From assembly GCF_025352645.1 (NCBI RefSeq), contig NZ_JANXSO010000087.1:1-34530 (forward strand): DNA of 34,530 bases, in the 5' to 3' direction. This document shows positions 1-34,145 of the stretch, one piece after another. This DNA is from Iodobacter sp. Its GTDB lineage: Bacteria > Pseudomonadota > Gammaproteobacteria > Burkholderiales > Chitinibacteraceae. The first letter of the stretch is position 1. The number at the start of each line of letters is the position of its first letter. A model generated the notes under the pieces. The model ran no database searches. It was not told where the DNA came from and saw nothing but the letters and a program-made list of their open reading frames with translations. Position numbers and translations under genes: made by a program.

Positions 1-156
1 AAGTCAGAGTTCTTCTACTTAGAAAAATTCACTAGTCTTGAGCAACTAGAGCAAGGCATCGTGGATTACATTCATTACTATAACCACGACCGAATCAAGT
101 TGAAGTTAAAAGGGCTGAGTCCTGTGCAATACAGAACCCAGCTCTTGAGTACCTAG
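1..156 (+). CDS. IS3-family transposase OrfB, C-terminal fragment
   Basis: Reading frame 1 is open from the window edge to a TAG at 154-156 and encodes the last 51 residues of an integrase-type DDE transposase. The segments DYIHYYNHDRIKLKLKGLSP and VQYRT are the hallmark end of OrfB in the IS150 group of the IS3 family. This end contains the last part of the rve integrase domain; the catalytic D, D and E residues should lie upstream, outside the window. The inverted-repeat-like end that follows at 166-190 fits this assignment. Whether the complete element is intact cannot be judged here. Confidence 0.9.
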   Translation, partial: KSEFFYLEKFTSLEQLEQGIVDYIHYYNHDRIKLKLKGLSPVQYRTQLLST

Positions 157-329: not shown

Positions 330-1091
330 ATGCGTGAATACATGCTGCAAACCCAATGGCATCAAATTATGGGAATTGGCGTGCTTTTTTTTGCCGCCCT
401 GTATTTTGGCTTTGGTACGCTCAATCTACTGCTTAGCCATAAGTGGCTACCTGCCATTCATTACGGCCATGTACTCGACCCACGCCCCTTGATGCCCGCG
501 CAAAGGCGTAAGGAAATAAAGCTTTCTATGCTCACCATTGTCTTATTTGGCACGGGCATGGTTTTCCCTTGGGGCCTGCTGCAATTAGGCTGGGCACGGC
601 TGGCCATCAACGCACCGCCCGCCCAGCTTGCCATAGAAATGTTTGCCTTGATCGTCTGGAATGAAATCCATTTTTATATAAACCACCGCTTACTTCACAC
701 GCCTTGGCTAAAGCGTTTTCACCTACCCCATCACCGCTCTATAGTCACCACCGCATGGTCCACCTATAGCTTTCATCCCGTTGAAGCCATTATGCTGGGC
801 AATGTGATTATGCTGCCGATGCTGGTGCATGATTTCTCTATTTACTCGCTGGCTGCTGTACCGGTTTTCAGCATTATTTTTAATAATATTGGCCATTCCA
901 ATTACGATTTTTTACCCGATGCCGATCACGATCGCTGGTGGCTTAATGGCGCGCGCCGCCACCATTTGCATCACGCCTGTTATCAAGGTAATTACGGTTT
1001 TATGTTCCCCTTTATGGATCGTTTACTTGGCACAGCGCTGCCCGCAGATGCAGCAAAACATAAAATTGAACGTAGCCGTCATGCTTTATAA
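330..1091 (+). CDS. Sterol desaturase / fatty acid hydroxylase superfamily protein
   Basis: A 253-aa integral-membrane di-iron enzyme of the fatty acid hydroxylase (sterol desaturase) superfamily. It carries the expected histidine clusters: HRLLH at 119-123, HLPHH at 131-135 and HHLHH at 211-215, with extra conserved-type histidines at FHP (149) and GHSN (189). Hydrophobic segments near residues 15-35, 65-85, 100-118 and 155-185 frame the clusters. Family members hydroxylate or desaturate lipid acyl chains, sterols or carotenoids using O2; the substrate here is unknown. The gene overlaps the next one, a desaturase, by 11 bases, so they are probably co-translated. ATG at 330 and ATG at 342 are both possible starts, and neither has a good Shine-Dalgarno. 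It is the first gene after the IS3 end and may lack its native promoter. Confidence 0.88.
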   Translation: MREYMLQTQWHQIMGIGVLFFAALYFGFGTLNLLLSHKWLPAIHYGHVLDPRPLMPAQRRKEIKLSMLTIVLFGTGMVFPWGLLQLGWARLAINAPPAQLAIEMFALIVWNEIHFYINHRLLHTPWLKRFHLPHHRSIVTTAWSTYSFHPVEAIMLGNVIMLPMLVHDFSIYSLAAVPVFSIIFNNIGHSNYDFLPDADHDRWWLNGARRHHLHHACYQGNYGFMFPFMDRLLGTALPADAAKHKIERSRHAL

Positions 1092-1950
1092 GCAGCGAGA
1101 TTGGCAAAGCTTGCTTTATCTAGGCATGCAGCCGCTATTAATGCTTTATTTGTGGCAAACGGGGCTCACCTCAACCATCAATAAACTGCTATTTTGCCTG
1201 CTGCTTTTTCTTACGCTTGGCATTAGTGTTATTCACCATAATCACTGCCATTTACATATCTGGCGGAATAAGCAGCTCAATAGAATCACAGATATTTGGA
1301 TTACCCTGCTGCAAGGTCACCCTAGCTTTGTGTTTTATCCGGCGCATATTGCCAATCACCATCGCTATCATCATGGCCCCAAAGATGAGGCGAGAACCTA
1401 CCGCTTTGGTAGCGATAGCAATAATCTGCTTGGCTATGTATTACACCCACTACAAGCGGCATGGGTGCTTTACCCACTTTTTATAACTTGGTTAATACGC
1501 ATAAAGCATAAAAAAACCAACGTTTTTTATTACTACCTGCGTCAATATTTAGTGCTTGGCCTCGCTTGGATCATTTTGGCGACGATTGATTACCACAAAT
1601 TTTTAACTTTCATTTTGCTGCCGCAATTACACGGCTTGCACTGGCTATTAGCCACCAATTACTTACAACATGCCCACGCTAATGGCCATTCACGCATCAA
1701 CTTTGCCCGCAATTTTGAGGGCTGGGTCAATCCACTGCTGTTTAATATTGGCCTACATACAACGCATCATCGCCATCCCAGAGCGCACTGGTCTGAACTT
1801 AGCAGCTTACATCCACACTACCGCCAGCAAGTTGATCCGCGTTTAAATGCGGGCCCGCTACTGGCGTATATGTTTCGTACTTATTTTTTGAGCTTATTCC
1901 GCCCCCGCTGGCGCAGCCAAAGCCTGATGCAACACCATAAGGATGCATAA
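1081..1950 (+). CDS. Membrane fatty acid desaturase
   Basis: I start this gene at ATG 1081, inside the end of the hydroxylase gene, giving 289 aa. The frame stays open further upstream, but there it only shadows the hydroxylase. The protein has the three histidine boxes of acyl-lipid/acyl-CoA desaturases: HHNHCH at 52-57, HRYHH at 94-98 and HTTHH at 226-230. Hydrophobic segments lie around 12-50, 125-140 and 155-190. It would introduce a double bond, or in divergent relatives a hydroxyl or acetylenic bond, into a fatty acyl chain at the inner membrane. Its stop (TAA, 1948-1950) overlaps the ATG of the ketosynthase gene by one base, which argues for an operon and a shared acyl substrate. Regioselectivity cannot be read from sequence. 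Confidence 0.87.
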   Translation: MLYKQRDWQSLLYLGMQPLLMLYLWQTGLTSTINKLLFCLLLFLTLGISVIHHNHCHLHIWRNKQLNRITDIWITLLQGHPSFVFYPAHIANHHRYHHGPKDEARTYRFGSDSNNLLGYVLHPLQAAWVLYPLFITWLIRIKHKKTNVFYYYLRQYLVLGLAWIILATIDYHKFLTFILLPQLHGLHWLLATNYLQHAHANGHSRINFARNFEGWVNPLLFNIGLHTTHHRHPRAHWSELSSLHPHYRQQVDPRLNAGPLLAYMFRTYFLSLFRPRWRSQSLMQHHKDA

Positions 1951-3809
1951 TGCCGATTCAGTTTGAACACGTTTATCTATCCGCTGCGGGCCTCTATTTG
2001 CCTGGGCCTGCGATTGGCAATGAAGAAATGGACGCCTTTATTGCGCCCATAAATAAAATATCCAAGCGCATAAAAGCCAGAATACTCGCCGAAAATGGCA
2101 TCAAAACCCGCCATTACGCTATTGATGCCGAAGGAAAAACACGGCAAAACCACGCACAAATCGCCGCTGCAGCGGTGCATCACTGCTTAGACTTGGCCCA
2201 AAGCAGCCTCGATAAAGTCTCATTACTGGCCGTTGGCTCATCAGGGGGCGACGCGCTGATGCCAGGCTTTGCCAATATGATTCAAGGCGAGCTGGGCGCA
2301 CCGCCCATGCAAACCGTTTCTTGCCAAGGCGTGTGCGCGGCGGGGGTCAGCGCCATCGAATTTGCTGCCCAAGCCATTGAGCTAGGCGCGCACCAGCAGG
2401 CCTTAGCCGTGGCCGCCGAAATGCCATCTCGAATGTTTAAGCAAAGCCGCTTTGCCCCACGTGGCTATCAAAGCGATTTTGACGCGCATTTTTTGCGCTG
2501 GATGTTATCCGATGGCGCAGGGGCCATGCTGCTCAGCCGCCAGCCAAAGGCCGGCCTTAATATTAAGCTTAAATGGATACACCAAAAGAGTTTCTCAGGG
2601 GATTACCCCGTGTGTATGCAACTGGGGCTAACGGAAGATCGCAGCCAATCTTTTTTAGACTTCGCCTCATCTGGCGAAGCAGAAGCCGCGGGCGCATTAT
2701 CGCTGCGACAAGATATCCGCATGCTGCCGCATTTATTTGATATCTGTATTCATGAATACGTGAAGCTGGTAGACGAAGGTTGGATTAGCTCGAACCAGAT
2801 TGATCACTTTCTTTGCCATTACTCATCAGCCAAGTTTATGCCGGTAGTAGAAGAGCTACTCGCCAAGGCGGGGCTCAGCATTCCGCCCGAGCGCTGGTAC
2901 AGCAATCTAAGCCATCGTGGCAATACCGGTGCAGCCTCTATCTTTATTATGTTGGCTGATTTCTTAAAACAAAAAACCATCAAAGCAGGTGAAAAGATTT
3001 TTTGCTTCATCCCCGAATCAGGCCGTATTTCAGCAGCCTATATGCTGTTTGAGGTAGAAGACGGCAACGCCATGCAATCTGCCACGCCGCGCACTCATCC
3101 TGTTCTCTTTGATCCGCAAATCCCCGCGCCGCATCAACCAAGCACCGCGCCACTGGCCCTGCAGCCGCTACTCACCCAGCTAGCCAGCCTGTGGCAAGAC
3201 TATCGCTCGCAAGTCTGGCGCACGCCCGTGATCCAATCGCTGGTGAATGGCCGCTTTGACGAAGCGGCTTACCAGCGCTGGACAGCCGCATGGGTGCCGC
3301 AAGTCAGGGAAGGCAGCCTGTGGATGCGTGAGGCGGCGGCATCGCTCAGTGGCGATCTAGCCGTCTTAGCCAGCTTAATCGACCTGCACGCCGATGATGA
3401 GCAAAACGATTTTCAGATCCTTTACCAAGATTACCAAGCTGCAGGTGGCCAGCTCGCCTTAGATGATTTACGCCGTAATCCAGGTGGCGAAGCGCTCAAT
3501 AGCTATCTGCACGCCCTAGCCGCCACGCCCAATCCCATCGGCTTACTAGGCGCGATTTATATTATTGAAGGCACGGGCCAGCGCATCGTCCCCACCCTAT
3601 TGCCCTTGCTGCGTGCCCAACTGACGCTGCCCGCACAAGCCTTTCGCTTTTTGGAATATCACGGTGCAAACGATGAACACCACCTTGCCCGCTGGCTAGG
3701 CGCAGTAGAAATCACCCTTGCCATAGACCCAAGCGCAGCGCCGGCTATCTTGGCCACGGCCAAACGCTGCGCCCAGCTGTATTTAATGCAATTTGAGCAT
3801 ATTGAATAA
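1950..3809 (+). CDS. FabH-like ketosynthase III fused to a haem-oxygenase-like di-iron oxidase domain
   Basis: A 619-aa two-domain protein. Residues about 1-370 are a thiolase-fold KAS III (FabH-like) domain. The likely nucleophile is C125 in SCQGV (C129 is the alternative), with H290 in LCHYSS and N325 in RGNTGAAS completing a Cys-His-Asn triad. A Pro/Ala-rich linker (about 375-405) leads to a C-terminal helical domain of about 210 aa. That domain resembles haem-oxygenase-like diiron oxidases (HDO, iron-containing redox enzyme family): E540 in YIIEG and H571-x3-D575-x2-H578 match the spacing of the family's metal ligands. HDO relatives such as UndA and CADD cleave C-C bonds or insert oxygen. 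The inferred role is condensation of an activated acyl chain followed by oxidative processing of the product. The usual helix-1 histidine ligand is not evident after E484. The fold assignments are recognised by motif and the product is unknown. Confidence 0.82.
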   Translation: MPIQFEHVYLSAAGLYLPGPAIGNEEMDAFIAPINKISKRIKARILAENGIKTRHYAIDAEGKTRQNHAQIAAAAVHHCLDLAQSSLDKVSLLAVGSSGGDALMPGFANMIQGELGAPPMQTVSCQGVCAAGVSAIEFAAQAIELGAHQQALAVAAEMPSRMFKQSRFAPRGYQSDFDAHFLRWMLSDGAGAMLLSRQPKAGLNIKLKWIHQKSFSGDYPVCMQLGLTEDRSQSFLDFASSGEAEAAGALSLRQDIRMLPHLFDICIHEYVKLVDEGWISSNQIDHFLCHYSSAKFMPVVEELLAKAGLSIPPERWYSNLSHRGNTGAASIFIMLADFLKQKTIKAGEKIFCFIPESGRISAAYMLFEVEDGNAMQSATPRTHPVLFDPQIPAPHQPSTAPLALQPLLTQLASLWQDYRSQVWRTPVIQSLVNGRFDEAAYQRWTAAWVPQVREGSLWMREAAASLSGDLAVLASLIDLHADDEQNDFQILYQDYQAAGGQLALDDLRRNPGGEALNSYLHALAATPNPIGLLGAIYIIEGTGQRIVPTLLPLLRAQLTLPAQAFRFLEYHGANDEHHLARWLGAVEITLAIDPSAAPAILATAKRCAQLYLMQFEHIE

Positions 3810-4054: not shown

Positions 4055-4936
4055 ATGCCCAAAGATGATTTCTTGCACACAGCCCACGATCCACGTGACC
4101 CCAGCCCTTGGCTCGCGATGTATCTAGACCAAAGCACGCCCCTACCCGATCATGTAAAACAAGCATGGCTCAGTGATTTAGCCTCGCCTTCACGGCAGTT
4201 TTTACTGCCATTTGTGCGGCCTCTCGCCAAGCTTTCGATGATTTTGATTCAAATCCTCAAGCTACTTTTACCCAAGCGCTGGGCCGCATCCAAAGCGCTG
4301 CACCGGCTTTTAGTCTGGGGCTTAAAAGGCTTTGTATCGCCCGAGGCCAATTGGCTCATCCTGCGTCATTTTCATTTAGGAGCGCAGATTATCGAGTTTG
4401 TAGAACGAAACGCGCCCGTCAGCGTGCCACTTTCCCCCCTCAAGCCCCTGACGATTGATGCACTTGCCGATGAGCTTTTTCTTAAACACGATTTAAACCT
4501 GTTTAATTTTATTATCCGGCTAGGGCAAGCCTTAAGAGATGAAGACAAAAAGCTGACTGCAGTGGCTGAAGTTGATTTCAGCATGATTACCGAGCCGCCA
4601 TTGGCATTAAACGCGATGCCACAAACCAAGCTCAATTGGATCGACGTGCAAACCGCTATCGAGATCTTTACACCGGTTTACCAGTTGTTTCTGACCGATA
4701 ACGATTTTTGGCGTGCCGCAAATTCACTACAAATGGACGAAACCATGGGGGTGTATGTCGCCACTCTTCTCAACACACCACAACATCTACTCTTACTGAA
4801 TAATAAACACCCACTGGTCCCCCTTTCCACCCTACACGCAGGGCATAGATTGGTATTACATGGGCTATCTACCGAGATGCTGCACTGCCTACTTAGCGAA
4901 ATGAAGCGAACAAACGCAAGCAGTAACGCCCATTAA
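4055..4936 (+). CDS. Conserved-looking hypothetical protein associated with the lipid cluster
   Basis: A 293-aa protein that I cannot assign to a family. It starts at ATG 4055 in a plausible context and its composition is that of a real soluble or membrane-peripheral protein. A hydrophobic/amphipathic stretch at about 52-75 (rich in L, I, K and P) could contact the membrane. Other notable segments are RHFHLGAQIIEF near 104-115, a region rich in L, D and F around 130-160, and a Trp-containing helix NDFWRAANS near 216-224. No nucleotide-binding, metal-box or signal-peptide motif is seen. It lies 245 bases after the ketosynthase on the same strand, separated by a repeat, so membership in the same pathway is an inference from proximity. 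It may be a partner or carrier-like accessory protein; no function is claimed. Confidence 0.7.
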   Translation: MPKDDFLHTAHDPRDPSPWLAMYLDQSTPLPDHVKQAWLSDLASPSRQFLLPFVRPLAKLSMILIQILKLLLPKRWAASKALHRLLVWGLKGFVSPEANWLILRHFHLGAQIIEFVERNAPVSVPLSPLKPLTIDALADELFLKHDLNLFNFIIRLGQALRDEDKKLTAVAEVDFSMITEPPLALNAMPQTKLNWIDVQTAIEIFTPVYQLFLTDNDFWRAANSLQMDETMGVYVATLLNTPQHLLLLNNKHPLVPLSTLHAGHRLVLHGLSTEMLHCLLSEMKRTNASSNAH

Positions 4937-9619: not shown

Positions 9620-11326
9620 TTATTCTTGGCTTAATACAAATACCGTGACCCAAATCCAATCAATGCCTTTTTCAATCACGGATCCTAAACGCACCATAAA
9701 AATCCGCTCGCGCGCTTGAACACGGTAAATTTTGTTACCACCATAATCAGCCGAATGCAAAATAAGCGTATTTACATTTTTTGCATCCACTTGATGCGGT
9801 AAATACAAAGCCGTGCGCACATTTGGCAAATCAGATACACCAAATGTACTTTCTTCGGCCAAGGAAATACGCTCTTTTCGCTCTTCTTTTTCCATATATA
9901 AATTAACGGCAACAGGAGCAACGGCCAGTGATTGAATCCCCACATAGACTTCATCGTCTGCTAAACGATTAAGGCGGCGAATCACACCAAGCTGCCAGTT
10001 TTCATTACGACCCAAGCGATTAGCCAGCAATAAGCCAGGCCTCACCCATTCATTTTCTGAAAACTGTACTACCGCACCATAACCACCCGCGCTTTCGTTT
10101 TCTATACTCCACACAAACCAATCATTCTGTTTATTTTCGATTTGCTTAGCTGGTGATACTTTTTCTTTAGTGCGAGTAGAAACAAAACCATATAAACGCA
10201 TATCCATGATTTCATCATAATCGACATGGCCTCGCTCATCTGTGGCTGATTTACGCATAAACTTATCGTTATCTAAGCGTATATGGCCAACAATGCAATC
10301 TAGACCGCTAATGATATCGGCAATTTTAGCGACTTTTTTACGCTCACTTCTTTGCACTACGCTATTTCTAATACTTAATGACCAAAACATATCTAAATGT
10401 TTGAGTAATTCTAGAGCCAATGGCGCAGGGCAATCTTTGCCCATACCAATATCTCGCGGCAGACTGCCCGTTTCTAAACGGCGTAATAAATCAGTGACTT
10501 CCTGCATTAAATCATGCAAACCCCAGTATCTGAATGGCTCCCCTTCACAATCAGGCTGAATTTTTTGCGCCCCTTCTGGGGCCTGTAAATTCACGCAGAA
10601 ATGATAGCGCCCTTCTTGAAATTTCCGTGATAGCTGAATAAGTTTTGACCACTGATTAAGCCATTGATCGACCCAATCAATTTGCCGCACAGAGAGGTTA
10701 TTGCTAGACAAAGAGCCCAACATTAACATTTGGATATATTCATCCGCGCAAGAAGTCACCTCTTTACCGTGCAAGTTATAAAGAGGGAAGGGATTACTAT
10801 CGCAGCCTTCTATTTCAGATAGGCGATAAAGCTGATGGGATAAAATCCATAATTTAGGCGGTACTTTTTCAAATTTAAAATAATGCCACTTGGCTTGAAT
10901 TGATAAATAATGCAAGCTTCTAGCCAATACCTTGGGCATAAGCAGAGCAAGCTCTGCTTTTTTGCCACCATCAACTTCTGCTTGAACAAAGCACTGGTAA
11001 ATAACCACCATATCCGCAGCAAATTGAGTAATTTGTTTCCAAAGTTTAATCTCAATATCTTTCGACATCCGAGGATTAGAAATGTATTGGTAACAAACGG
11101 CCTCATAAGACAGCTGAGCAGCATCATCAAGCAATAGTAAAACATGTAAGCTTTCTAAGCTTGCCACTCTCTGCTCATTAATAAATGCGGCGACCGCCTG
11201 ATGTATTTTAAGCTGCTGTGATTGTGTATCAATCTCTTGCAAACGTTTACACCACGACGTAGCCGCCTTTACGCTAGCAAATGGCGATTTATCTTTTGAA
11301 AAAATAGTCGTTAAAAAATTACGCAT
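9620..11326 (-). CDS. 568-aa protein with a C-terminal PilZ-like region
   Basis: A soluble 568-aa protein. The first about 315 residues are helical and contain no motif I recognise. A region of about 325-480 resembles a divergent PilZ domain: basic RSERKK (326-331), then NESAGG (410-415, matching the N/DxSxxG signature), then a hydrophobic barrel-like stretch with NWQLGVIRRL and YVGIQSLAV. PilZ domains bind cyclic di-GMP, but the canonical RxxxR spacing is not clean here, so ligand binding is doubtful. The gene follows a SpoIIAA/STAS-like gene by 14 bases and is probably co-transcribed with it. It ends just before the bidirectional terminator. A signalling role is inferred from the domain resemblance only. 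Confidence 0.7.
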   Translation of the reverse strand: MRNFLTTIFSKDKSPFASVKAATSWCKRLQEIDTQSQQLKIHQAVAAFINEQRVASLESLHVLLLLDDAAQLSYEAVCYQYISNPRMSKDIEIKLWKQITQFAADMVVIYQCFVQAEVDGGKKAELALLMPKVLARSLHYLSIQAKWHYFKFEKVPPKLWILSHQLYRLSEIEGCDSNPFPLYNLHGKEVTSCADEYIQMLMLGSLSSNNLSVRQIDWVDQWLNQWSKLIQLSRKFQEGRYHFCVNLQAPEGAQKIQPDCEGEPFRYWGLHDLMQEVTDLLRRLETGSLPRDIGMGKDCPAPLALELLKHLDMFWSLSIRNSVVQRSERKKVAKIADIISGLDCIVGHIRLDNDKFMRKSATDERGHVDYDEIMDMRLYGFVSTRTKEKVSPAKQIENKQNDWFVWSIENESAGGYGAVVQFSENEWVRPGLLLANRLGRNENWQLGVIRRLNRLADDEVYVGIQSLAVAPVAVNLYMEKEERKERISLAEESTFGVSDLPNVRTALYLPHQVDAKNVNTLILHSADYGGNKIYRVQARERIFMVRLGSVIEKGIDWIWVTVFVLSQE

Positions 11327-11340
11327 AATTCGCCTATCAG

Positions 11341-11703
11341 TTAGGCATTGAGTTCAGAGGATTGAACAAGCCAAGCCTTAGCATCATCAGCATCATCGAA
11401 TATACCAATTTCAGCATCAGTAAACATACGGCTTAACCAAGCAGACCAAGTTACCCATTGATCCGAAGTAACCACAGCGATGCGATTAAATTCTTGCCCA
11501 TGTTCACGAACAAATTTGAGTTCTTCTAAAGCCACATCAAGCGTATAGCTTAGCATTCCATGCAAATCAAACAATAATGCCACTGGCCCATGAAACTTGG
11601 ACTGATAAAGCACACTTTCTTCAAATTCACGATAGTCTTGCAAAGTAAATTCACCCAAAACGGTGGTCTGGATATAATCGCTTTCTTGTGAAATGCTAAT
11701 CAT
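11341..11703 (-). CDS. SpoIIAA/STAS-like protein
   Basis: A 120-aa protein. I start it at ATG 11703, which has an AGGAG Shine-Dalgarno 6 bases upstream; the in-frame ATG at 11739 has none. The alternating hydrophobic strands and helices, GEFTLQDYREFEESV early, LLFDLHGM in the middle and EIGIFDDADDAKAWL at the end, match the SpoIIAA-like/SEC14-like STAS family. That family covers small single-domain proteins that bind lipids or act as anti-anti-sigma-like switches. No anti-sigma kinase is nearby. It is the first gene of a likely two-gene unit with the 568-aa PilZ-like protein. Confidence 0.75.
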   Translation of the reverse strand: MISISQESDYIQTTVLGEFTLQDYREFEESVLYQSKFHGPVALLFDLHGMLSYTLDVALEELKFVREHGQEFNRIAVVTSDQWVTWSAWLSRMFTDAEIGIFDDADDAKAWLVQSSELNA

Positions 11704-12065
11704 CGCGGACTCCTGCCCAAGAAAAAAACTAAAATACAATGTCTACTAGCTAGTTTACTTAGCTTTCCCCTGCCTCGACAAGGATTACATTTTTTTAATT
11801 ATTTATAGCAATTTAAAATTAATGCGTCCGCTTTTGTTTTACCGCAAGGTTTTGTTAACTCTGCATAAAAGAGAGTGCTTTAAAGCAAACCACAATTAAA
11901 TACGAAACGATTTAAGTATTTGCTAATTCAGAGAAATGACCAAATTGAATGATCACCCCAGATAAACGCGGATTATTGCCGCATAATGGATCAATCAATT
12001 CTAGACCCTATTGTGACATTCTTCACCCCTGCCCTGCAGGCAAGCGATGATAAATACTTTGCCAA
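11704..12065. other. Non-coding gap downstream of recO
   Basis: These 362 bases lie between the recO stop and the STAS-like gene, both on the minus strand. The gap is AT-rich near the STAS gene and presumably carries its promoter, though I cannot pick out convincing -35/-10 boxes. A short palindrome (CCTGCAGG) lies near 12033. No classical terminator follows recO. I see no gene; in many betaproteobacteria pdxJ would follow recO here. Confidence 0.5.
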
Positions 12066-12785
12066 TTAAAGCTTTTGCAAATCAATTAAAAGCTGGCGGG
12101 TATGCAAAGGCGCATCGCCCAAAATAGCCGCGAATGCCTGTCTCATTAATAACTTACCCTGAGTTGCCACGCTGGCATAATCACCGGTGGCAAAGGCGAG
12201 CAAAGCCTGCCCCTGATACTGAGGCAAATGACTTTGCACTGGAATAATACCAAGTGTTGGATCAAAGCCATATGTGCGCCCAGCCAGCACCGGCTGGCCC
12301 TCACACTGCCCCCAATCAACGCCATAACCCATCGCATCGAGCAAAACACGCTCAAACTCACGCAAAACCGGCTCTACCCCTAAGCCATCACTAGGTAAGA
12401 TAGACAGAGCGCGAATCGCCTCAAAATAGCTGGCAAACAATAAAGCATGGGGTTCATCGCGAGGCAGAAGACGTAGCAGCAGCTCATTCAAATAAAAGCC
12501 GCACAGCAGCGGCAAGCCGCGTAATTGGGGAATGCCCCCCTGCCAATCTGCAGAGTGTAGAGTTTTAAGCTCCCCCACACCAAACCAAGACAGCAGCACG
12601 GGCTGAAAGCCTAATAAAATACTACGCAGCTGCGAACCGGGGCGTTGGGCCCCCCGAGCCACCATCATGACACGACCATGATCGCGGCTAAATACATCGA
12701 GCAGGCGGCTGGTTTCTTTGTATGGGTACTGATGCAGTACAAAGGCCGCCTGCGTATCAATGCGCTGCTTTAGGGGTCTTGCCAC
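12066..12785 (-). CDS. recO: DNA repair protein RecO
   Basis: A 239-aa RecO-family protein. The N-terminal OB-fold begins FVLHQYPYKETSRLLDVFSR (15-34), typical of the family. The helical C-terminal part contains LCGFYLNELLLRLLPRDEPH, also typical, and the length is usual. RecO works with RecR and RecF to load RecA on SSB-coated single-stranded DNA. The start is GTG at 12785, five bases after the era stop and without an obvious Shine-Dalgarno, so translation is probably coupled to era. It is the last gene of the lepA-lepB-rnc-era block. Confidence 0.95.
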   Translation of the reverse strand: MARPLKQRIDTQAAFVLHQYPYKETSRLLDVFSRDHGRVMMVARGAQRPGSQLRSILLGFQPVLLSWFGVGELKTLHSADWQGGIPQLRGLPLLCGFYLNELLLRLLPRDEPHALLFASYFEAIRALSILPSDGLGVEPVLREFERVLLDAMGYGVDWGQCEGQPVLAGRTYGFDPTLGIIPVQSHLPQYQGQALLAFATGDYASVATQGKLLMRQAFAAILGDAPLHTRQLLIDLQKL

Positions 12786-26594: not shown

Positions 26595-27248
26595 TTATTG
26601 CAGCATTTTTTCAACAGTCAGCTCATTACTTAAAAACAACTTAGCGCCAGATAACGACACACTATCCACCCGCATTTCACCGCCAGGCGCCAAATAACGC
26701 TCTGCAATACAGGACTCTGTCTTGCTTGTATCCGTGCAAACCCCTTCCACATAAGCCAAGTAAGCGGTATTGCCAGTATTTTTTAATACATTATTTTCAA
26801 TCACATACGCCTGCTGTGCTTGCCGAGGCTGCACCACTAAAATGGTACTAAGGCTAGCCGAGCCAGAAAACCCAGCCCCTTGATAAGCTTTTACATAACC
26901 TGGACGCTCATGAAACGTCACACGGTAAAAGCGTGGCTGATTATCAGCGGGGCCTTGGTAATAAAGCTTTAACCATTTGCTTTCATTTGGGCGCAGTAGC
27001 AGCTGCTTAGGGCCATACATCAGCGCCCCCTTCTCCACTTTTTTTAAAAGTGCCCCAGCATAAGGCGGATCGGTTTCTTCTACCGTCACCTGATAAAACC
27101 GCGCTTGACTAGAGTCATTGCTAACGCTTTTTGCCAAAAAAGCACTTTTCGCCCCCATAAAGTAGGTCATCTCCCCTACCGACAAACTCCACGCAGGTGC
27201 ACATGGCACTAGCAACAATAAGCATACGAAGTATTTTATTATGCGCAC
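26595..27248 (-). CDS. Second fimbrial periplasmic chaperone (PapD-like)
   Basis: A 217-aa PapD-like immunoglobulin-fold chaperone. It has a signal peptide (about 1-22, ending WSL), then strands with YQVTVEETDPPY, LLLRPNESKWLKLYYQG (the G1-like basic region) and FYRVTFHERPG. The start is GTG at 27248 with GAGG upstream. These chaperones complete pilin subunits in the periplasm by donor-strand complementation. It is the last gene of the fimbrial set, 252 bases after the adhesin. It is clearly related to, but divergent from, the chaperone at 31814-32491, so it may be dedicated to the tip adhesin. Confidence 0.85.
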   Translation of the reverse strand: MRIIKYFVCLLLLVPCAPAWSLSVGEMTYFMGAKSAFLAKSVSNDSSQARFYQVTVEETDPPYAGALLKKVEKGALMYGPKQLLLRPNESKWLKLYYQGPADNQPRFYRVTFHERPGYVKAYQGAGFSGSASLSTILVVQPRQAQQAYVIENNVLKNTGNTAYLAYVEGVCTDTSKTESCIAERYLAPGGEMRVDSVSLSGAKLFLSNELTVEKMLQ

Positions 27249-27500
27249 CTATTTATCACCTCAGAATAAATATTTCCAATAGAAAAAACAATCTGACTAT
27301 GCCGCTTTCTCAATCTCATTATAAATATTGTAAGGCGAATGAAACTCGCGTTTTTATTCAGCATTGCTCGCGGTTCTTACCCGCCCTACAAACTCTAAAA
27401 CCAAGGCAAACACTCAAGAAATCCATTTACACGGAGTCCATTGAGCAAGAGGCATAATCAGAAAAAATAAAACAAATGACTTTAATGAGTACTTAATAGT

Positions 27501-29066
27501 CTATTTCCAAGTGGCTTCCACCGTCACATCGCCTGTCGCCTTAGCCGAGCCATTCCAAAAATCACCATTTACATCGTATGAAACATTACTTGAAGATAAA
27601 TCAAACAATAAATCCAGCCATAAGGATGATTCATACTGACTACCGCCCAATACCTCAGACCAAGGCATATTTAAAATATCAATTGCTGTACCACGGCAAT
27701 CAGATGCTATTTTCTGGGGCTTAGCGCCCCCCTTTTCGCTAAAGGCTAGCGTCAGCGAAATAGCAATATCTTGCTTTGCAGCAGTAGAAAACTTGCAATA
27801 AGAACGCCCGGCTATATCAACATGAGGGCCAGATACTTTTAATGTTATTTTGGTGGCTTTAGATGGACCAGATTGTTTAATTTCATAAGGAATTTTTATT
27901 TCAGGATCTTTACCAACAACGCCCTGATAGAAACCGTTTATTGCAGAGCCTAGATTACGCTCCGTAATAGCAATCGCATAGTCCACTCGCTTAAGGGTAA
28001 GGCTATTAAAATAAAACCCATTAGATTTAAATTCAGGTGTTTTTGTTGCATACATAGAAATTTCAGCCGCGTCTAATACTTTACTTGCATCGGTGGGACC
28101 CAAGGCCTTAGCAAGATAATCAGAAGAGATAAAAATCTTAGCTTTATTAGATATTTCATTACCCACAAGCTTAGCAACATGCCCTGCTCCTAGCTCCTTG
28201 ATAAAATTAACACCAGGCGTTTTTGATTCTATAGTCATATCTTTCCATAGCACTCCATTGTCGATATTTATTGGGCACAACACACCGGCAGGGGATATAG
28301 ACTCCTCACAAGCAGTAGGGAAACTCAATATCTTTTTTTGAGAACTAATAGTTATTGTTTCATTTTCTATATTTCTAAAATAGAATGTACCCATAAAAGA
28401 CAAGCGTAAAGAAGACCTATTTTGCCCCCAGTCTCTAGCATTTTTTTCCAAAGCACTCAGACTCCCTACCGCAAATGTATTGTAAATATCAACAGATGTA
28501 ATTTTTGAGATATTATTGCCCTTTAGGTTTTTTAAAAATTCACCTTTATTTATTTGTATTTGCAAGCCACGTGGATTATTTGACGCACTATCAGCATTTT
28601 TATAGTTTGGGTAGTTAGCAGCGTGAAAAACAACTCTGTTATACAGAAGGGAAGAAGGATAGCTACTAGGGACAGTCCAAGCAAATGGATAATTAGAAAC
28701 CACATTATATTTAGTACTTCCATTAGGGATTAATGAAATCACCACGCCTGAACTTTCATAATAAAAACCTACGCTCATATTCCTATTCCATGCGCCTGAA
28801 CCTGAAAAAGGGTAGGAAACAACGATTGCTCCTTTCTGTTGTGTAGCATTCCAGCTACCAAACACACCTCCAGACTTAAAATCACCGTTTGTGATAATAA
28901 GATTGTCTTTTCCAAACTCAACAACACCAACGCTTACTGTTGTATTTAAATCACCAACAAGCCTTACCCCCTGCACTAAACCGGGATTAGCTAAATCTAT
29001 TGCAGCAAACACCGGGCAACAAACCATCATTAATAAAATACAAAATAACTTGGCTACTTTCATCAT
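27501..29066 (-). CDS. CfaE/CblD-like fimbrial tip adhesin
   Basis: A secreted protein of 521 aa from ATG 29066 (ATG 29063 is equally possible). Its signal peptide ends near VFAA. The placement directly after the usher, the length, and a C-terminal pilin-like domain ending in alternating hydrophobic residues (DVTVEATWK) fit the minor tip subunit of class 5 fimbriae (CfaE/CooD/CblD). It is much longer than the roughly 360 aa of CfaE, implying an enlarged N-terminal receptor-binding part. Cysteines near the middle (ACEESISPAGVLCP) and in the C-terminal half (YCKFST, SDCRGT) could form disulfides. The gene is visibly AT-rich. The receptor is unknown. Confidence 0.75.
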   Translation of the reverse strand: MMKVAKLFCILLMMVCCPVFAAIDLANPGLVQGVRLVGDLNTTVSVGVVEFGKDNLIITNGDFKSGGVFGSWNATQQKGAIVVSYPFSGSGAWNRNMSVGFYYESSGVVISLIPNGSTKYNVVSNYPFAWTVPSSYPSSLLYNRVVFHAANYPNYKNADSASNNPRGLQIQINKGEFLKNLKGNNISKITSVDIYNTFAVGSLSALEKNARDWGQNRSSLRLSFMGTFYFRNIENETITISSQKKILSFPTACEESISPAGVLCPINIDNGVLWKDMTIESKTPGVNFIKELGAGHVAKLVGNEISNKAKIFISSDYLAKALGPTDASKVLDAAEISMYATKTPEFKSNGFYFNSLTLKRVDYAIAITERNLGSAINGFYQGVVGKDPEIKIPYEIKQSGPSKATKITLKVSGPHVDIAGRSYCKFSTAAKQDIAISLTLAFSEKGGAKPQKIASDCRGTAIDILNMPWSEVLGGSQYESSLWLDLLFDLSSSNVSYDVNGDFWNGSAKATGDVTVEATWK

Positions 29067-29116
29067 ATAAAATCTCAATTTTAAATAATATTTAATTATG
29101 GTGAAGCCACAATCGA

Positions 29117-31762
29117 TTAGCGAACAGTCGGCTTAGCACAACTCACCTCATTCACCCACATCGCTCCTTTGGCCGCACTTAAATCAAAATTAATCTGACA
29201 AGTATTATTGGCGGCCACTTTATAGCTTACATTTGGGTGATCGGTGTCCACATCAACAGCAAAGGCACCATCTGCAGCGGTGATAGTGCTACCAATATGG
29301 TTATGCAGGCGTACGCCCACTTTAGGGATGCCGTTTTCGGTGAGCACGCCAAATACGGTGACTTGGCGGCGTAATCTTGGCTTAAGGGTGGCCACATTCC
29401 CAGGGTAGAGCACTAGCGCTTTTTCACCATTTTGAATATCATAATTTTCTGGTGATTTAGCACTGCTTTGTACCGATATCGGCGCAGCGCCAAAAGCAGG
29501 TAGCGCCACAAATGAGGATGTGCTTTCTAGTGGGCTACTGCGGCCATGCAGGTATAAATCGAGTTGACCACGGGCATCGTCATCAATTTTTACAATCACC
29601 CCTGCGTCTGAGCGCTGGCTGGCCCAGCCCATACCATCGCCATTACCTGCCAGACTTCCGCTCACATTACCGCTCATACTTAAACCATCAGCACTGCTGT
29701 TTTTACCTACCGTGGCATCCCAGGCAAAGATGCGGTTGGCACCATTGGCGCGCAGGTCTAAATTGGTGCTGCTTTCATTGCTGGCTAAGCTGCGGCTGCG
29801 CGAGACCGCGGCACCCAGATAATCTAGGCCATTGACCGTGGTTGGCGTCCAAGCTCCGTGTATGCCCATGTTTTCTGAATCGATACTGCGCGAGTAATCT
29901 ACTCCGCCCGAGCCAAAGCTAAAGTTCATATTGACCGTGGCATACAAAGATTGCTTGCTACTGCCATCCTCACGGCTTTGCCAAGATTTACCTAAATTAA
30001 GCCGCAAATCCACCCATTTATTGCTATAGAGACCTTGGCTCCAATCCAAGCGGGAATCATGGCTACCGCTGATTTGATCGTAACTAAAATTACTGGTAAG
30101 GCTGGAGGTTTTTTCCAGCGTCAACGGGCCTTGTAAATCTAGCGTTGCCCCCACGCTGATATAGCGTCGATCAGTGCGATAGCTATCCACAGCATGGCCA
30201 GACCCTGATCGCTCTAACATCGTCCAAAAACTAGCGGGGCCTAGATTTAGGTTGGCAGAAATATTGCTGGAATAGCTGCGATCAGATGCCAGCCCTAACT
30301 GGCCATTAATCGAGCCATAGCTAAAGCTTTTTTGAAAGCTAGGCTCAATCACGGTTAAAGAGCCGTATGAATAAAGTGAAGAAGCCAGATCAACCCAAGG
30401 GGTAGACATGCGCCCGCTTACACCGACCAGATGGGTGAGTCTGCCATCGCCGCTGTCTTGGTAACGGCCAGCAAACATTTGAATCTGCTTATCTTTGCCA
30501 CCACTACTCATTTTATAAACAGACTCTTGCTTACTGGAAACAACTTGGCCATTAACCACCACATCTAGCCGTACGGTATAGCTACCCACCGGCAACGGGC
30601 GGGTATCTATTTCTTGATTACCAATGGCAAGCTGCTGCACATTCAGCAGCTTGCCATCACGGTAGATGGATAGCTGCCCGCTGGCAGGCATAAACACAAA
30701 GATGGGCTTTTGGGACAAGCTGGCATCTGATTTTTCTGATTGGCCGTTATTACCGGCCGTTACCCCCACAAACTTACCGCCACGGGTAAAAGAAAGGCTG
30801 CCTAAATTATTCATCGCCCACAGGCTTAAATAGCCTGCAGATACATTAAAACCTTCAAAATCACGGGTTAAACGGGCTTCGTAAATGCTGCCGTTTTGCT
30901 GCGTACGGGCATCAGCATCCAGATACAAATAGCTAGAGCCAAATGAGGTGGTTGATTGCGCATGCAAATAAGCATCTGCATCTCGCCCATCTGTTTTCAT
31001 CATCGACATATTGTAGTTAAGCACCGAGCTTAAATGCTGCTCTGTGCTCTCTGGCAGGGTCAAAACTCTAGAGCGGGCAGCGGTGTCAAAAGCTTCTTTA
31101 GGCAAAGAGGCTATTAATTCGAAAGTCATTACATCAAAACACATGCCTAAATCATCAGCCGCTGGGGCTGCTAAGGCCTGCTCAGCGGGGTTATTTTCTG
31201 CAGTAGATGCCATAGCTGCAACCACAGGGCTGTGCTCGCAAGAGCTGGCACGCAGTGGCTTGCCATATTGCGCTTTAAATAAAGCCAGATAATCCAAGCT
31301 CAGTTTTGATTTATTCAAAGAAAGTGAATCAAGGGTTAAAAAGCTGCCTGTATAGCGAATTTTTGCCCGCCCAGCTTCCTCTACCCCAGTTGGCGTGCGT
31401 AGCAGAAAAGGGATATCTACCCCTTGCTGCAAAAGCGCAAAAAATTCAGGTGGAAAACTTTTTTGATCAACACGAACATCTGCGCTGCCACTGCCTGCTA
31501 CTACTTTGGCATGAAGTGGCACGGCTGCATCAGAGGATTTAACAAGGGGTACTGCGGCCGCAGCGTCTTCATCGATGGAGGTGAGTGTCGCTTCATTTAC
31601 CATCTCGCCACTCGTTACTACCGCGCTTTGGCTAATTGCATAAGCCACACCCATATTAAAATAGCCACAGGCCATCCCAAGCAAGGTGCGCTTGACACTT
31701 TTTCCCAGGAAAGAGCCCTGTTTTAATTTAATGACTTTGCTAACAACAAGACTCTTTTTCAT
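29117..31762 (-). CDS. Outer-membrane usher of the class 5 (CS1/CooC-like) fimbrial system
   Basis: I choose ATG 31762 (MKKSLVVSKV), giving 881 aa. The frame is open 11 codons upstream but without a sensible signal sequence. After an N-terminal region, a long stretch of alternating hydrophobic/aromatic strands (about 270-740) forms the expected beta-barrel. A plug-like segment with ASGQLSIYRDGKLL and LPVGSYTVRLDV lies near 360-400. The C-terminal domain has VFGVLTENGIPKVGVRLHNH and a Cys pair. This is the TcfC/CooC usher type of the alternate chaperone-usher pathway rather than a PapC/FimD usher. It channels subunits across the outer membrane and nucleates assembly. Confidence 0.87.
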   Translation of the reverse strand: MKKSLVVSKVIKLKQGSFLGKSVKRTLLGMACGYFNMGVAYAISQSAVVTSGEMVNEATLTSIDEDAAAAVPLVKSSDAAVPLHAKVVAGSGSADVRVDQKSFPPEFFALLQQGVDIPFLLRTPTGVEEAGRAKIRYTGSFLTLDSLSLNKSKLSLDYLALFKAQYGKPLRASSCEHSPVVAAMASTAENNPAEQALAAPAADDLGMCFDVMTFELIASLPKEAFDTAARSRVLTLPESTEQHLSSVLNYNMSMMKTDGRDADAYLHAQSTTSFGSSYLYLDADARTQQNGSIYEARLTRDFEGFNVSAGYLSLWAMNNLGSLSFTRGGKFVGVTAGNNGQSEKSDASLSQKPIFVFMPASGQLSIYRDGKLLNVQQLAIGNQEIDTRPLPVGSYTVRLDVVVNGQVVSSKQESVYKMSSGGKDKQIQMFAGRYQDSGDGRLTHLVGVSGRMSTPWVDLASSLYSYGSLTVIEPSFQKSFSYGSINGQLGLASDRSYSSNISANLNLGPASFWTMLERSGSGHAVDSYRTDRRYISVGATLDLQGPLTLEKTSSLTSNFSYDQISGSHDSRLDWSQGLYSNKWVDLRLNLGKSWQSREDGSSKQSLYATVNMNFSFGSGGVDYSRSIDSENMGIHGAWTPTTVNGLDYLGAAVSRSRSLASNESSTNLDLRANGANRIFAWDATVGKNSSADGLSMSGNVSGSLAGNGDGMGWASQRSDAGVIVKIDDDARGQLDLYLHGRSSPLESTSSFVALPAFGAAPISVQSSAKSPENYDIQNGEKALVLYPGNVATLKPRLRRQVTVFGVLTENGIPKVGVRLHNHIGSTITAADGAFAVDVDTDHPNVSYKVAANNTCQINFDLSAAKGAMWVNEVSCAKPTVR

Positions 31763-31813
31763 TAGAAACCTACATACATTGATGCAATAAAACAAAGCGG
31801 ATCAATACCTGAA

Positions 31814-32491
31814 TTACTCTGCAGCTATATATTTGTATTTCATTCCACGCCAGAGGCCATAACCTTCAAAAATATCCATTTTTTTTGAGAAATCAACGCT
31901 CTCGCCAGGCAATAAAAAATCATCACGGGAACAAGAAGTTAATATGGCATTTTTTTTACCCTCTTCAGAGCACTTTCCAATGGCAAGTGCTTGAATAAAG
32001 GTATTACCCGTATTTTTTAAAAGGCCTTTGCCATTCACTTCGTATTTAAAATTAATTTTACGCGGGCGCACCACCAATACTGTTCCGATACTAATTTTTT
32101 GCTGCGCATCAATACTGGTACTTTCTGTTAAATGAGAGGCCTTACTCATATTTTGTTCAATAAAAAACAACTGGTAATAACGTTCTTTGTCATCTGCCTC
32201 CCCTTGGTAATACACTTTTAAATTGGCGTTTTTATTTGGCCCCACTAATAATGTTGCGGGAGACACCAATACTTGAGCAGGCGTACTGAGTGGAACCATG
32301 CTTTTAGGGTTATCCACTTCAATCACTTTGGTGGTTACAAACTTAGCAACGCTCTCTTGATTTTTTATTTCTTTTGCTACAAAGAATTGATCATCCTGAA
32401 TTTCCGTCGTCAAAACACCAACATTAATTGCAGAAGCATTTACATACAAACCACTAAGTAAGCAAGCAATAAACCCACGCGCAATATTCAT
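31814..32491 (-). CDS. Fimbrial periplasmic chaperone (CooB/CblB-like)
   Basis: A 225-aa chaperone from ATG 32491, which has GAGGAA five bases upstream (an upstream in-frame ATG lacks one). A signal peptide (about 1-19) is followed by an immunoglobulin-like domain with KFVTTKVIEVDNPKS, LLVGPNKNANLKVYYQG and RYYQLFFIEQ, the pattern of PapD-like chaperones. It should protect and prime the pilins encoded just upstream. Its relation to the second chaperone (26595-27248) suggests duplication followed by divergence. Confidence 0.87.
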   Translation of the reverse strand: MNIARGFIACLLSGLYVNASAINVGVLTTEIQDDQFFVAKEIKNQESVAKFVTTKVIEVDNPKSMVPLSTPAQVLVSPATLLVGPNKNANLKVYYQGEADDKERYYQLFFIEQNMSKASHLTESTSIDAQQKISIGTVLVVRPRKINFKYEVNGKGLLKNTGNTFIQALAIGKCSEEGKKNAILTSCSRDDFLLPGESVDFSKKMDIFEGYGLWRGMKYKYIAAE

Positions 32492-32510
32492 AATTTCCTC
32501 GGTTAAATAA

Positions 32511-32540
32511 CAAAACAAGAAAATTTTTTTCCTTGTTTTG
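32511..32540 (-). terminator. Intra-operon hairpin after the second pilin gene
   Basis: CAAAACAAG at 32511-32519 and CTTGTTTTG at 32532-32540 are perfect 9-bp complements, extendable through A/T pairs with one bulge. The hairpin lies 12 bases after the pilin stop and 20 bases before the chaperone start. It is not followed by a strong T-run on the minus strand, so partial termination or 3'-end protection is more likely than full termination. Confidence 0.6.
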
Positions 32541-32552
32541 CATTGAAATTAA

Positions 32553-33182
32553 TTATTTAGACCAAGTTGCAACAAAGCTAATTGAAACCACACCAGAGTA
32601 ACTACCGTCTGGCACCTTCTCTAGATCTTTACCGGCGGTCACTGCCACATTGCCATTCATGCCTTTTAAAATATCAAACTTTATATTCACATTACTTGCC
32701 TCGAAATAAGTAATTCCATTTAGTGTTAAGTTTGGGCCGGCAACAGCTAAATTCATTCCTTCTAGCCCCGCAGCGGCAGCCGTCACTTTTTTATCATCAC
32801 CTTTTAAAATTTCTACGGGTACAGCAGCTAATTGAATGCCCCCCAAAAAGCCTGAAACTTCTAAAGAACCTACCGAGCCACCAGAAATATGATTTAATTT
32901 CTTATCCGACATTGCAGCAGTAATCTTATAGCCGCTTGAACCAGGTTTACCTGCTACTTGTATCGTTAGCGAACTGCTTGGTGAGCTAAATGCTTTTTGG
33001 GATGGATTCCATTTAAAAGCCAAAGCATCAGTGCTCGCAAATACATTTAACTCTACATCTGCTTTTTTAATGGCTTCTGCATTCCATCTCACCGTTGCGG
33101 TAGCCGTTGTATCTGCAGCAAACACAGCATTAGAGGCAAAAAACAAAAAAATAACTATTAATTTTTTTTTAGTGGTTTTCAT
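32553..33182 (-). CDS. CS1-type fimbrial pilin, paralogue 2
   Basis: A 209-aa pilin from ATG 33182 (MKTTKKKLIVIF). The open frame extends 30 codons upstream without a signal-like start. The signal peptide is about 1-24 (ending VFA). The mature protein begins ADTTATATVRWNAEAI and holds the blocks DVELNVFASTDAL and FKWNPS that it shares with its neighbour. It ends with DGSYSGVVSISFVATW, the donor-strand beta motif of class 5 (CS1/CFA/I/Cbl) major pilins. It is paralogous to the upstream pilin, with near-identical N- and C-terminal blocks and a diverged middle. It may be a second major subunit or an alternative one. Confidence 0.88.
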   Translation of the reverse strand: MKTTKKKLIVIFLFFASNAVFAADTTATATVRWNAEAIKKADVELNVFASTDALAFKWNPSQKAFSSPSSSLTIQVAGKPGSSGYKITAAMSDKKLNHISGGSVGSLEVSGFLGGIQLAAVPVEILKGDDKKVTAAAAGLEGMNLAVAGPNLTLNGITYFEASNVNIKFDILKGMNGNVAVTAGKDLEKVPDGSYSGVVSISFVATWSK

Positions 33183-33244
33183 ATCTACTCTCAATAAAAA
33201 ATTATTTAATTTAATTAATAAGACATTGAACAGTCGCAATTGCA

Positions 33245-33266
33245 GGTGGGTTATAAAAACCCCACC
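33245..33266 (-). terminator. Hairpin between the two pilin genes
   Basis: GGTGGG (33245-33250) pairs with CCCACC (33261-33266), with adjacent TT/AA pairs and a one-base bulge. It lies in the 212-base gap downstream of the first pilin. It resembles an attenuator or mRNA 3'-end stabiliser; no long T-run follows on the minus strand. Confidence 0.5.
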
Positions 33267-33394
33267 CAGCAAAAATTAAATCAGAGCAATTAAAAACTGA
33301 CTTTTAGCACTTTGTAATTAAGGATAAAAATTCAAAAGCGACATTTTTAAACTACTTAGTTTTACCTGCAGTAAAACCATCTAGCTCAGCTCCT

Positions 33395-34027
33395 TTACCC
33401 ACCAACTGCGGTATCAGCCCACTTAGCCACAAAACTCATGCTAACAACACCTGAATAGGTACCGTCTTCTACTGCATCTAGGTCAATAGAACTATTGCCT
33501 TTGCTGGCAGTAAAAATCTTAAATTTCACAGGAATACCTGTCGCCTCATGATATGTCCCTTTAGGTGTAACATTTGGACCCGCCTTAGCCAGATCCATAT
33601 TATTCAAGCCCGCAATAGACGTTTTCACACCACCCGCATCTCCATTCAAGATATTCACAGGGGTTTTACCAATATCAAGCGCACCCAGCTCTGCTGACAC
33701 ATTCAAAACACCTTTTGCAGCGCCGCCCTCATGCACCAGAGTTACATCTACCAACTGTGTGGTAATGCTATAAGCAGTAGAACCTGCTCTACCGGCAGCT
33801 TGAATAGTTAAATCACTAGTAGGTGTAGTAAAAGCTTTAGTAGATGGGTTCCATTTAAAAGTTAGCGCATCTGTACTTGCAAATACGTTCAGTTCTACGT
33901 CAGTTTTTTTTGCAGCCGTACTATTCCATTGAACCTTGGCAGTTGCCACTGAGTCTGCTGCAAATACAGCCGTAGAGGCAAACGCAGCAAGCACGGCACC
34001 GATAATTAGTTTTTTAGTATGCTTCAT
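33395..34027 (-). CDS. CS1-type fimbrial major pilin, paralogue 1
   Basis: A 210-aa pilin. I start at ATG 34027 (MKHTKKLIIGAV), which has GAGG about six bases upstream, rather than at the ATG five codons earlier. A signal peptide (about 1-23, ending VFA) precedes a mature protein that starts ADSVATAKVQWNSTA. It holds the shared blocks DVELNVFASTDAL and FKWNPS and ends with DGTYSGVVSMSFVAKW plus a short tail. This fits the CS1-type fimbrial major subunit family. As the first gene of the operon it is probably the main shaft subunit. Confidence 0.9.
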   Translation of the reverse strand: MKHTKKLIIGAVLAAFASTAVFAADSVATAKVQWNSTAAKKTDVELNVFASTDALTFKWNPSTKAFTTPTSDLTIQAAGRAGSTAYSITTQLVDVTLVHEGGAAKGVLNVSAELGALDIGKTPVNILNGDAGGVKTSIAGLNNMDLAKAGPNVTPKGTYHEATGIPVKFKIFTASKGNSSIDLDAVEDGTYSGVVSMSFVAKWADTAVGG

Positions 34028-34145
34028 AACAACCTCACCCATATGGGATAATAAATTGACAACGATTTTTTGCGTTTAGATACAACGACTATCGCTCATC
34101 GCTGAACAGCGAACGAATAGTATTAACTTACCAATATTCAATAAA

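Follow-up and report, generated by a model that had tools for sequence, protein, structure and literature searches.

A gene in the 34,530-nucleotide stretch of Iodobacter sp. DNA analysed here (the window) encodes a ketosynthase (KS) of the KS III type joined to a haem-oxygenase-like di-iron oxidase (HDO) domain. This KS-HDO protein is a conserved, uncharacterised bifunctional enzyme encoded in a conserved operon, and each of its halves is a variant of a known family. It belongs to a gene set that recurs in many proteobacteria, which suggests an as yet unstudied pathway to an oxidised small molecule of fat-derived origin.

The source genome comprises 4.39 Mb in 181 contigs. The initial annotation of the window placed both domains in one polypeptide, and the open reading frame (ORF) agrees on this with three Pfam matches above curated cut-offs: ACP_syn_III (residues 126-202, 1.2e-6), ACP_syn_III_C (residues 279-351, 4.4e-10) and Haem_oxygenas_2 (PF14518, residues 514-611, 3.1e-10). 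The AF2 model of the protein (mean pLDDT 83.7, pTM 0.59) has an all-helical C-terminal half. Its pLDDT drops below 50 in the linker (Table 1) and at residues 165-175, and averages 72 over residues 571-580, the site of the helix-3 ligands discussed below. The 50 best Foldseek rows of the full-length model are KS entries. The annotation knew of no characterised enzyme with this architecture, and the literature searched, in which we found no characterised member, does not contradict it.

Table 1. Features of the KS-HDO gene and its operon in the window, with the residues considered for the HDO metal site.
Feature	Position	Strand	Basis or remark
Membrane fatty-acid hydroxylase (PF04116)	330..1091	+	First operon gene on contig
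Membrane fatty-acid desaturase (PF00487)	1081..1950	+	Start taken as ATG 1081
KS-HDO ORF	1950-3809	+	619 aa, no internal stop
Ketosynthase domain, StlD/DarB type, residues 1-370 (~7-369)	1950..3059	+	NCBIfam, PDB, Foldseek, invariant triad
Variable linker, about residues 371-404	3060..3161	+	Low conservation; AF2 pLDDT <50 at 377-386
HDO domain, about residues 405-619	3162..3806	+	PF14518; profile matches; 96/96 conservation
HDO candidate metal ligands	H480, E484, D487, E540, H571, D575, H578		Conserved 96/96
HDO possible extra carboxylate	E454		Acidic in 96/96 (93 E, 3 D)
DUF6999 (PF22523) protein	4055..4936	+	Pfam; 80/80 fused loci

Elsewhere in the window, positions 1-155 (+), where the contig starts, appear to encode the C-terminal end of an IS3-type integrase; the hydroxylase gene follows ~175 bases downstream. 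A 568-aa protein at 9620-11326 (-) matches nothing in NCBIfam and reaches the cut-off of no Pfam family, and a fimbrial operon at 26595-34042 (-) encodes a TcfC/CooC-type usher, EcpB-type chaperones and MatB-like fimbrillins.

Distribution of the fusion and its operon

A domain-architecture search for KS III and HDO fusions, which the annotation had suggested as a check, was answered by a scan of genome contigs in which the best 80 of 124 confirmed relatives were kept. All 80 carry the fusion, span the query at 61-87% identity and are free of stops over its length, so a missed stop between KS and HDO was rejected. Fused loci lie in beta- and gammaproteobacteria and include members of Iodobacter, Collimonas, Deefgea, Chitinibacter, Chitinimonas, Cellvibrio, Azoarcus, Rhodoferax, Ottowia, Variovorax, Achromobacter, Bordetella and Lysobacter; the gene of Iodobacter sp. 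BJB302, for example, is at NZ_PDZG01000101.1, 2902-4767. Within the family of the window, the fusion occurs in 16 of 43 genomes and 7 of 11 genera, counting the window's own genome. Across the class, 26 of 369 genomes gave a match, of which three have the fusion, two have adjacent separate KS and HDO genes, 20 have a KS alone and one is weak. We examined 16 of the 20 KS-only loci, leaving out those of G283, G173, G128 and G146; the match in G067 is a weak KS III match. One metagenome-assembled genome (C7_D7_9) holds two copies of the fusion on two contigs (L034 and L041). The locus L020 (JANYCY010000052.1), from a genome labelled as a Janthinobacterium MAG, gives a KS-HDO BLAST result identical to that of G033 (L006), a genome of the window's own genus, so its label looks doubtful.

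KS, HDO and DUF6999 are encoded by separate neighbouring genes in nine genomes, three from the class of the window and six from another class (probably Alphaproteobacteria), so the association of KS with HDO predates the fusion or extends beyond it. The functional tie between KS and HDO that the annotation had supposed is borne out by the 80 fused loci, the best of 124 confirmed relatives, together with these nine genomes. At one split locus (L128, 10209-15187), CRISPR type I-F cas1 and cas2-3 genes directly adjoin the KS, HDO and DUF6999 genes.

A KS tree was built from a hand-chosen sample of 21 fused, four split and 16 KS-only sequences and one FabH. All 21 fused rows group in a single clade (100/100) next to the split pair L127 and L171, and the 16 KS-only rows (DarA-linked, see below) fall to one side of a branch with support 97/74. 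The split KSs of L128 and L170 have long branches without a firm position, so HDO-linked KSs as a whole need not be a single clade. The tree is most simply explained by a single fusion event. The single fused clade and the 80 stop-free relatives exclude a chance or artefactual fusion.

The operon order is hydroxylase, desaturase, KS-HDO and DUF6999. In the window the desaturase gene overlaps that of the hydroxylase by 11 bases, its stop shares one base with the KS-HDO start, and DUF6999 begins 245 bases after KS-HDO. Three clusters from the neighbourhood analysis (3, 5 and 6) were judged on inspection to be spurious ORFs, and partner counts were therefore redone by tblastn. At the 80 fused loci this found the hydroxylase in 79, the desaturase in 78 and DUF6999 in all 80; even lenient thresholds gave no hydroxylase at L072 and no desaturase at L090 or L098. 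Order and strand agree in all 74 loci with every partner readable whole, and the successive genes overlap or are separated by at most 60 bases in 75/77, 78/78 and 72/77 cases. Downstream genes for an M23 peptidase, AnmK and an MFS-acyltransferase were rejected as operon members, each occurring in just five loci. The operon lacks genes for a reductase, a carrier protein, a ligase and a thioesterase, and a PDB sequence search with the hydroxylase and desaturase gave no match.

Homologues of the window-type hydroxylase and desaturase were not seen at the nine split loci or at the fused locus L130, which reduces the core to KS, HDO and DUF6999. At L127 (2623-3189) and L171 (11441-12007), a membrane-like, His/Glu-rich protein of 188 aa is encoded directly upstream of the split KS. 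The two proteins are 55% identical and have no Pfam family, and they may stand in for the hydroxylase. At L169 a desaturase match at 11461-12302 (-) lies in two frames beside a fused KS-HDO gene, and may be broken; no hydroxylase was seen beside that gene.

DUF6999 is the strangest part of the operon. Its AF2 model is all-helical (pLDDT 86.8, pTM 0.86), and of 87 rows in a Foldseek search of the PDB none reached E <=0.001 (best E 1.4). Polar residues invariant among the proteins of the window, L148-L171 and L199-L208 include H105, H145, D146, D215, D228, E229 and H252. The domain was found in 19 distinct genomes (7/369, 9/398 and 6/190 in overlapping sets), and KS and HDO adjoin it in 17 of these, which gives this domain a context. 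The exceptions are G116, where it stands alone, and G094, where only broken remnants occur; a control match in Caulobacter vibrioides fell outside the loci inspected. In G116 (L156, 8389-9447) the gene has neither KS nor HDO nearby and adjoins a transposase-like ORF, and in G094 (L157) a C-terminal KS fragment accompanies DUF6999 in pieces.

Variant features of the two domains

The annotation called the N-terminal domain FabH-like. The KS III type holds, but the label is too loose, because the closest kin in NCBIfam, PDB and Foldseek searches alike are StlD (the Photorhabdus stilbene ketosynthase) and DarB (the dialkylresorcinol cyclase). The best NCBIfam family is NF005293 StlD/DarB (5e-100), the best PDB sequence match is StlD (5gk0, E 7e-63), and the best Foldseek rows for the AF2 model are also StlD (5gk2, 35% identity, TMt 0.86). 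At 335.2 bits for NF005293 (curated cut-off 450) and 268.7 bits for NF053539 DarB (cut-off 550), the domain scores below both cut-offs; we therefore call it StlD/DarB-like and assign it to neither curated family, and its reaction may accordingly differ. Kinship to StlD/DarB favours a ring-forming condensation over formation of a simple beta-keto acid. By analogy with these enzymes, we infer that the KS would form a 1,3-cyclohexanedione-type product from two acyl thioesters.

The proposed catalytic cysteine, C125, proved wrong. C129 aligns with the catalytic Cys of StlD, within the motif GACAAG, and position 125 is Cys in only four of 81 fused proteins. Cys occurs at position 129 in all fused (81), split (9) and DarA-linked (16) KSs, and the C129-H290-N325 triad is intact in these 106/106 sequences. 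The remaining residues named by the annotation (H290, N325, E540, H571, D575 and H578) are as claimed, and all are invariant among the relatives compared. The structure alignment A1 took 52 of the 81 fused proteins.

For the HDO half, a profile of the KS-linked domains matches 3dde, which has a haem-oxygenase-like fold, at 5e-13. A wider profile of 20 rows (15 unlinked and five KS-linked HDOs) matches 3dde, CADD, MboA (6e-6), UndA (4wwj 8e-5, 6p5q 1.3e-4) and TenA homologues, in line with the kinship to UndA and CADD that had been proposed. Profiles of KS-linked and unlinked HDOs align to each other with an hhalign probability of 99.6.

All seven candidate ligands in Table 1 are invariant in 96/96 KS-linked HDOs (87 fused and nine split, not all independent, since L166 and L055 cover one and the same piece of DNA). 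The four that the annotation had named stand, and the helix-1 pair, which it had left unnamed, departs from UndA and CADD. In the alignment with UndA, the E-x2-H ligand pair, which we take to be E101 and H104 of that enzyme, falls on E484 and position 487. The histidine is replaced by Asp (D487) in 96/96 KS-linked proteins, giving E484-x2-D487. Other HDO relatives in the class (20 from genomes without a KS match, and L178, L194 and L197 with a KS match on another contig) have Glu at 484 and His at 487 in 23/23 cases. At position 480 these 23 proteins have Tyr (20), His (2) or Asp (1), and position 454 is acidic in none of the 22 with a letter there.

Compared with the 3H/3C ligand set, five of six positions are kept and the helix-1 His is D487. 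H480 may stand in for this missing histidine. The acid at position 454 could be an SznF-like extra carboxylate of the 3H/4C variant; SznF was matched by neither HDO profile search, and the two positions are therefore not equated. The ligand sets described in the sections of a recent HDO review available to us (PMC13108848) are 3H/3C, 3H/4C and a mononuclear variant, and the predicted H480/E484/D487 set of helix 1 would not be among them. The words ketosynthase, fusion and fused are absent from the main text of that review.

DarA and the neighbourhood of KS-only genes

In the dar cluster of Azoarcus sp. BH72, as given in the accessible part of PMC3949708, the DAR cyclase gene darB lies beside darA, the gene for a DAR aromatase, and a BtrH-like protein is encoded by darE. 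We labelled as DarA a protein of ~315 aa in the same placement as in the dar table of that source; the label follows from its location beside the KS and close to a BtrH_N protein and does not imply a sequence match with any named DarA. Of the 16 KS-only loci, 15 have such a neighbour and 14 a BtrH-like protein; the locus without the DarA neighbour (L136) starts 349 bases from its contig end. Neither neighbour turned up at the 93 remaining loci searched, of which 91 carry KS and HDO, and the DarA query found no match at five further loci with KS and HDO (0/96 for DarA in total). Conversely, window-type HDO, DUF6999, hydroxylase and desaturase found no match at any of the 16 KS-only loci. Genome-wide, DarA was detected in 5/5 DarA controls and 1/17 genomes with KS and HDO (G770), and the genome of the window gave no DarA match. 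The DarA-like proteins have no NCBIfam or Pfam family, and a search of the PDB gave just two weak sequence matches (best E 0.12).

Cyclohexanediones are intermediates of the dialkylresorcinol pathway (PMC4414361, in the portion available). From these intermediates and the neighbourhoods in which DarA and HDO occur, we infer that HDO occupies the oxidative place of DarA. The case for this replacement is built on gene context rather than on function, and G770, which holds both KS-HDO and DarA, counts against it.

A proposed pathway and its alternatives

Our preferred reading, which we rate at somewhat under an even chance and which draws on analogy to the dialkylresorcinol pathway, is that KS-HDO serves an uncharacterised, lipid-derived biosynthetic pathway with both of its activities, the KS forming a ring and the HDO oxidising the product in the place of DarA. 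The KS, like StlD and DarB, would condense two acyl thioesters drawn from fatty acid metabolism to give a ring of the 1,3-cyclohexanedione type. The tethered HDO would then oxidise this product with O2 at a di-metal site, either aromatising it or oxygenating the ring, perhaps with a carboxylate being lost, and so fill the place that DarA has in dialkylresorcinol clusters. The membrane hydroxylase and the desaturase would tailor the chains, and DUF6999 would be a required third component. A bolder proposal, which we consider doubtful, is that the ring-forming KS, an HDO with a metal site outside the ligand sets given in the review sections cited above, and the helical DUF6999 without a structural match would yield a new proteobacterial class of oxidised, fatty-acid-derived aromatic or quinone-like compounds, through O2-dependent aromatisation that replaces DarA.

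The annotation had suggested that a condensed beta-keto product is handed on for oxidative cleavage or decarboxylation. In an UndA-like scheme of this kind, the KS would supply a precursor, either a beta-keto acid or a ketone, for oxidative cleavage or decarboxylation by the HDO to an alkene or a shortened chain. UndA decarboxylates a fatty acid (PMC13108848, in the sections available), and the wider HDO profile does match UndA and MboA. That profile, however, is dominated by unlinked HDOs (15/20 rows), the E-x2-H of UndA is E-x2-D in every KS-linked protein, and the StlD/DarB type of the KS favours ring formation. The changed helix-1 ligands weaken the UndA analogy, and together with the KS type they disfavour the suggested scheme, which we regard as unlikely.

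It is also rather improbable that the HDO acts before the KS and provides it with an oxidised acyl substrate for condensation, such as an unsaturated or hydroxylated thioester. The operon encodes two further oxidative enzymes upstream that modify acyl chains, so pre-condensation oxidation could be a theme of the cluster. However, L130 and the nine split loci retain KS, HDO and DUF6999 with no visible homologue of either enzyme, which argues that the HDO does not depend on them, and DarA, its presumed counterpart, acts after the KS. A protective or regulatory HDO, as proposed for the HDO-like DtpC of Acinetobacter, which can limit oxidative stress (PMC13232832, in the part available), is very unlikely given the fusion and the strict linkage to KS, fused or adjacent, in 17/19 DUF6999-bearing genomes.

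Few members of the fast-growing HDO superfamily have a known reaction, and here fusion and conserved operon narrow the likely substrate to the product of the KS, which is directly testable. The conserved ligand change also provides a natural test of the role of the helix-1 histidine.

Three known systems invite comparison. StlD and DarB share their fold, sequence and Cys-His-Asn triad with the KS of the window, which differs in being fused to an HDO and in having no DarA or BtrH-like neighbour. Fused KSs also carry F107, H180 and Q224, where DarA-linked KSs have H, D and Y, among several positions that are fixed differently. UndA, CADD, MboA and the 3dde protein have in common with the window HDO the helix-2 Glu and the helix-3 H-x3-D-x2-H motif. 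Unlike them, KS-linked HDOs have Asp for His in helix 1, have gained H480 and an acid at position 454, and are fused to a KS or encoded beside one. Dialkylresorcinol clusters are built around a KS of StlD/DarB type and draw on two intermediates of fatty acid metabolism for their products (PMC3949708, in the part available), as KS-HDO loci presumably do, but they encode DarA and a BtrH-like protein where KS-HDO loci have HDO and DUF6999.
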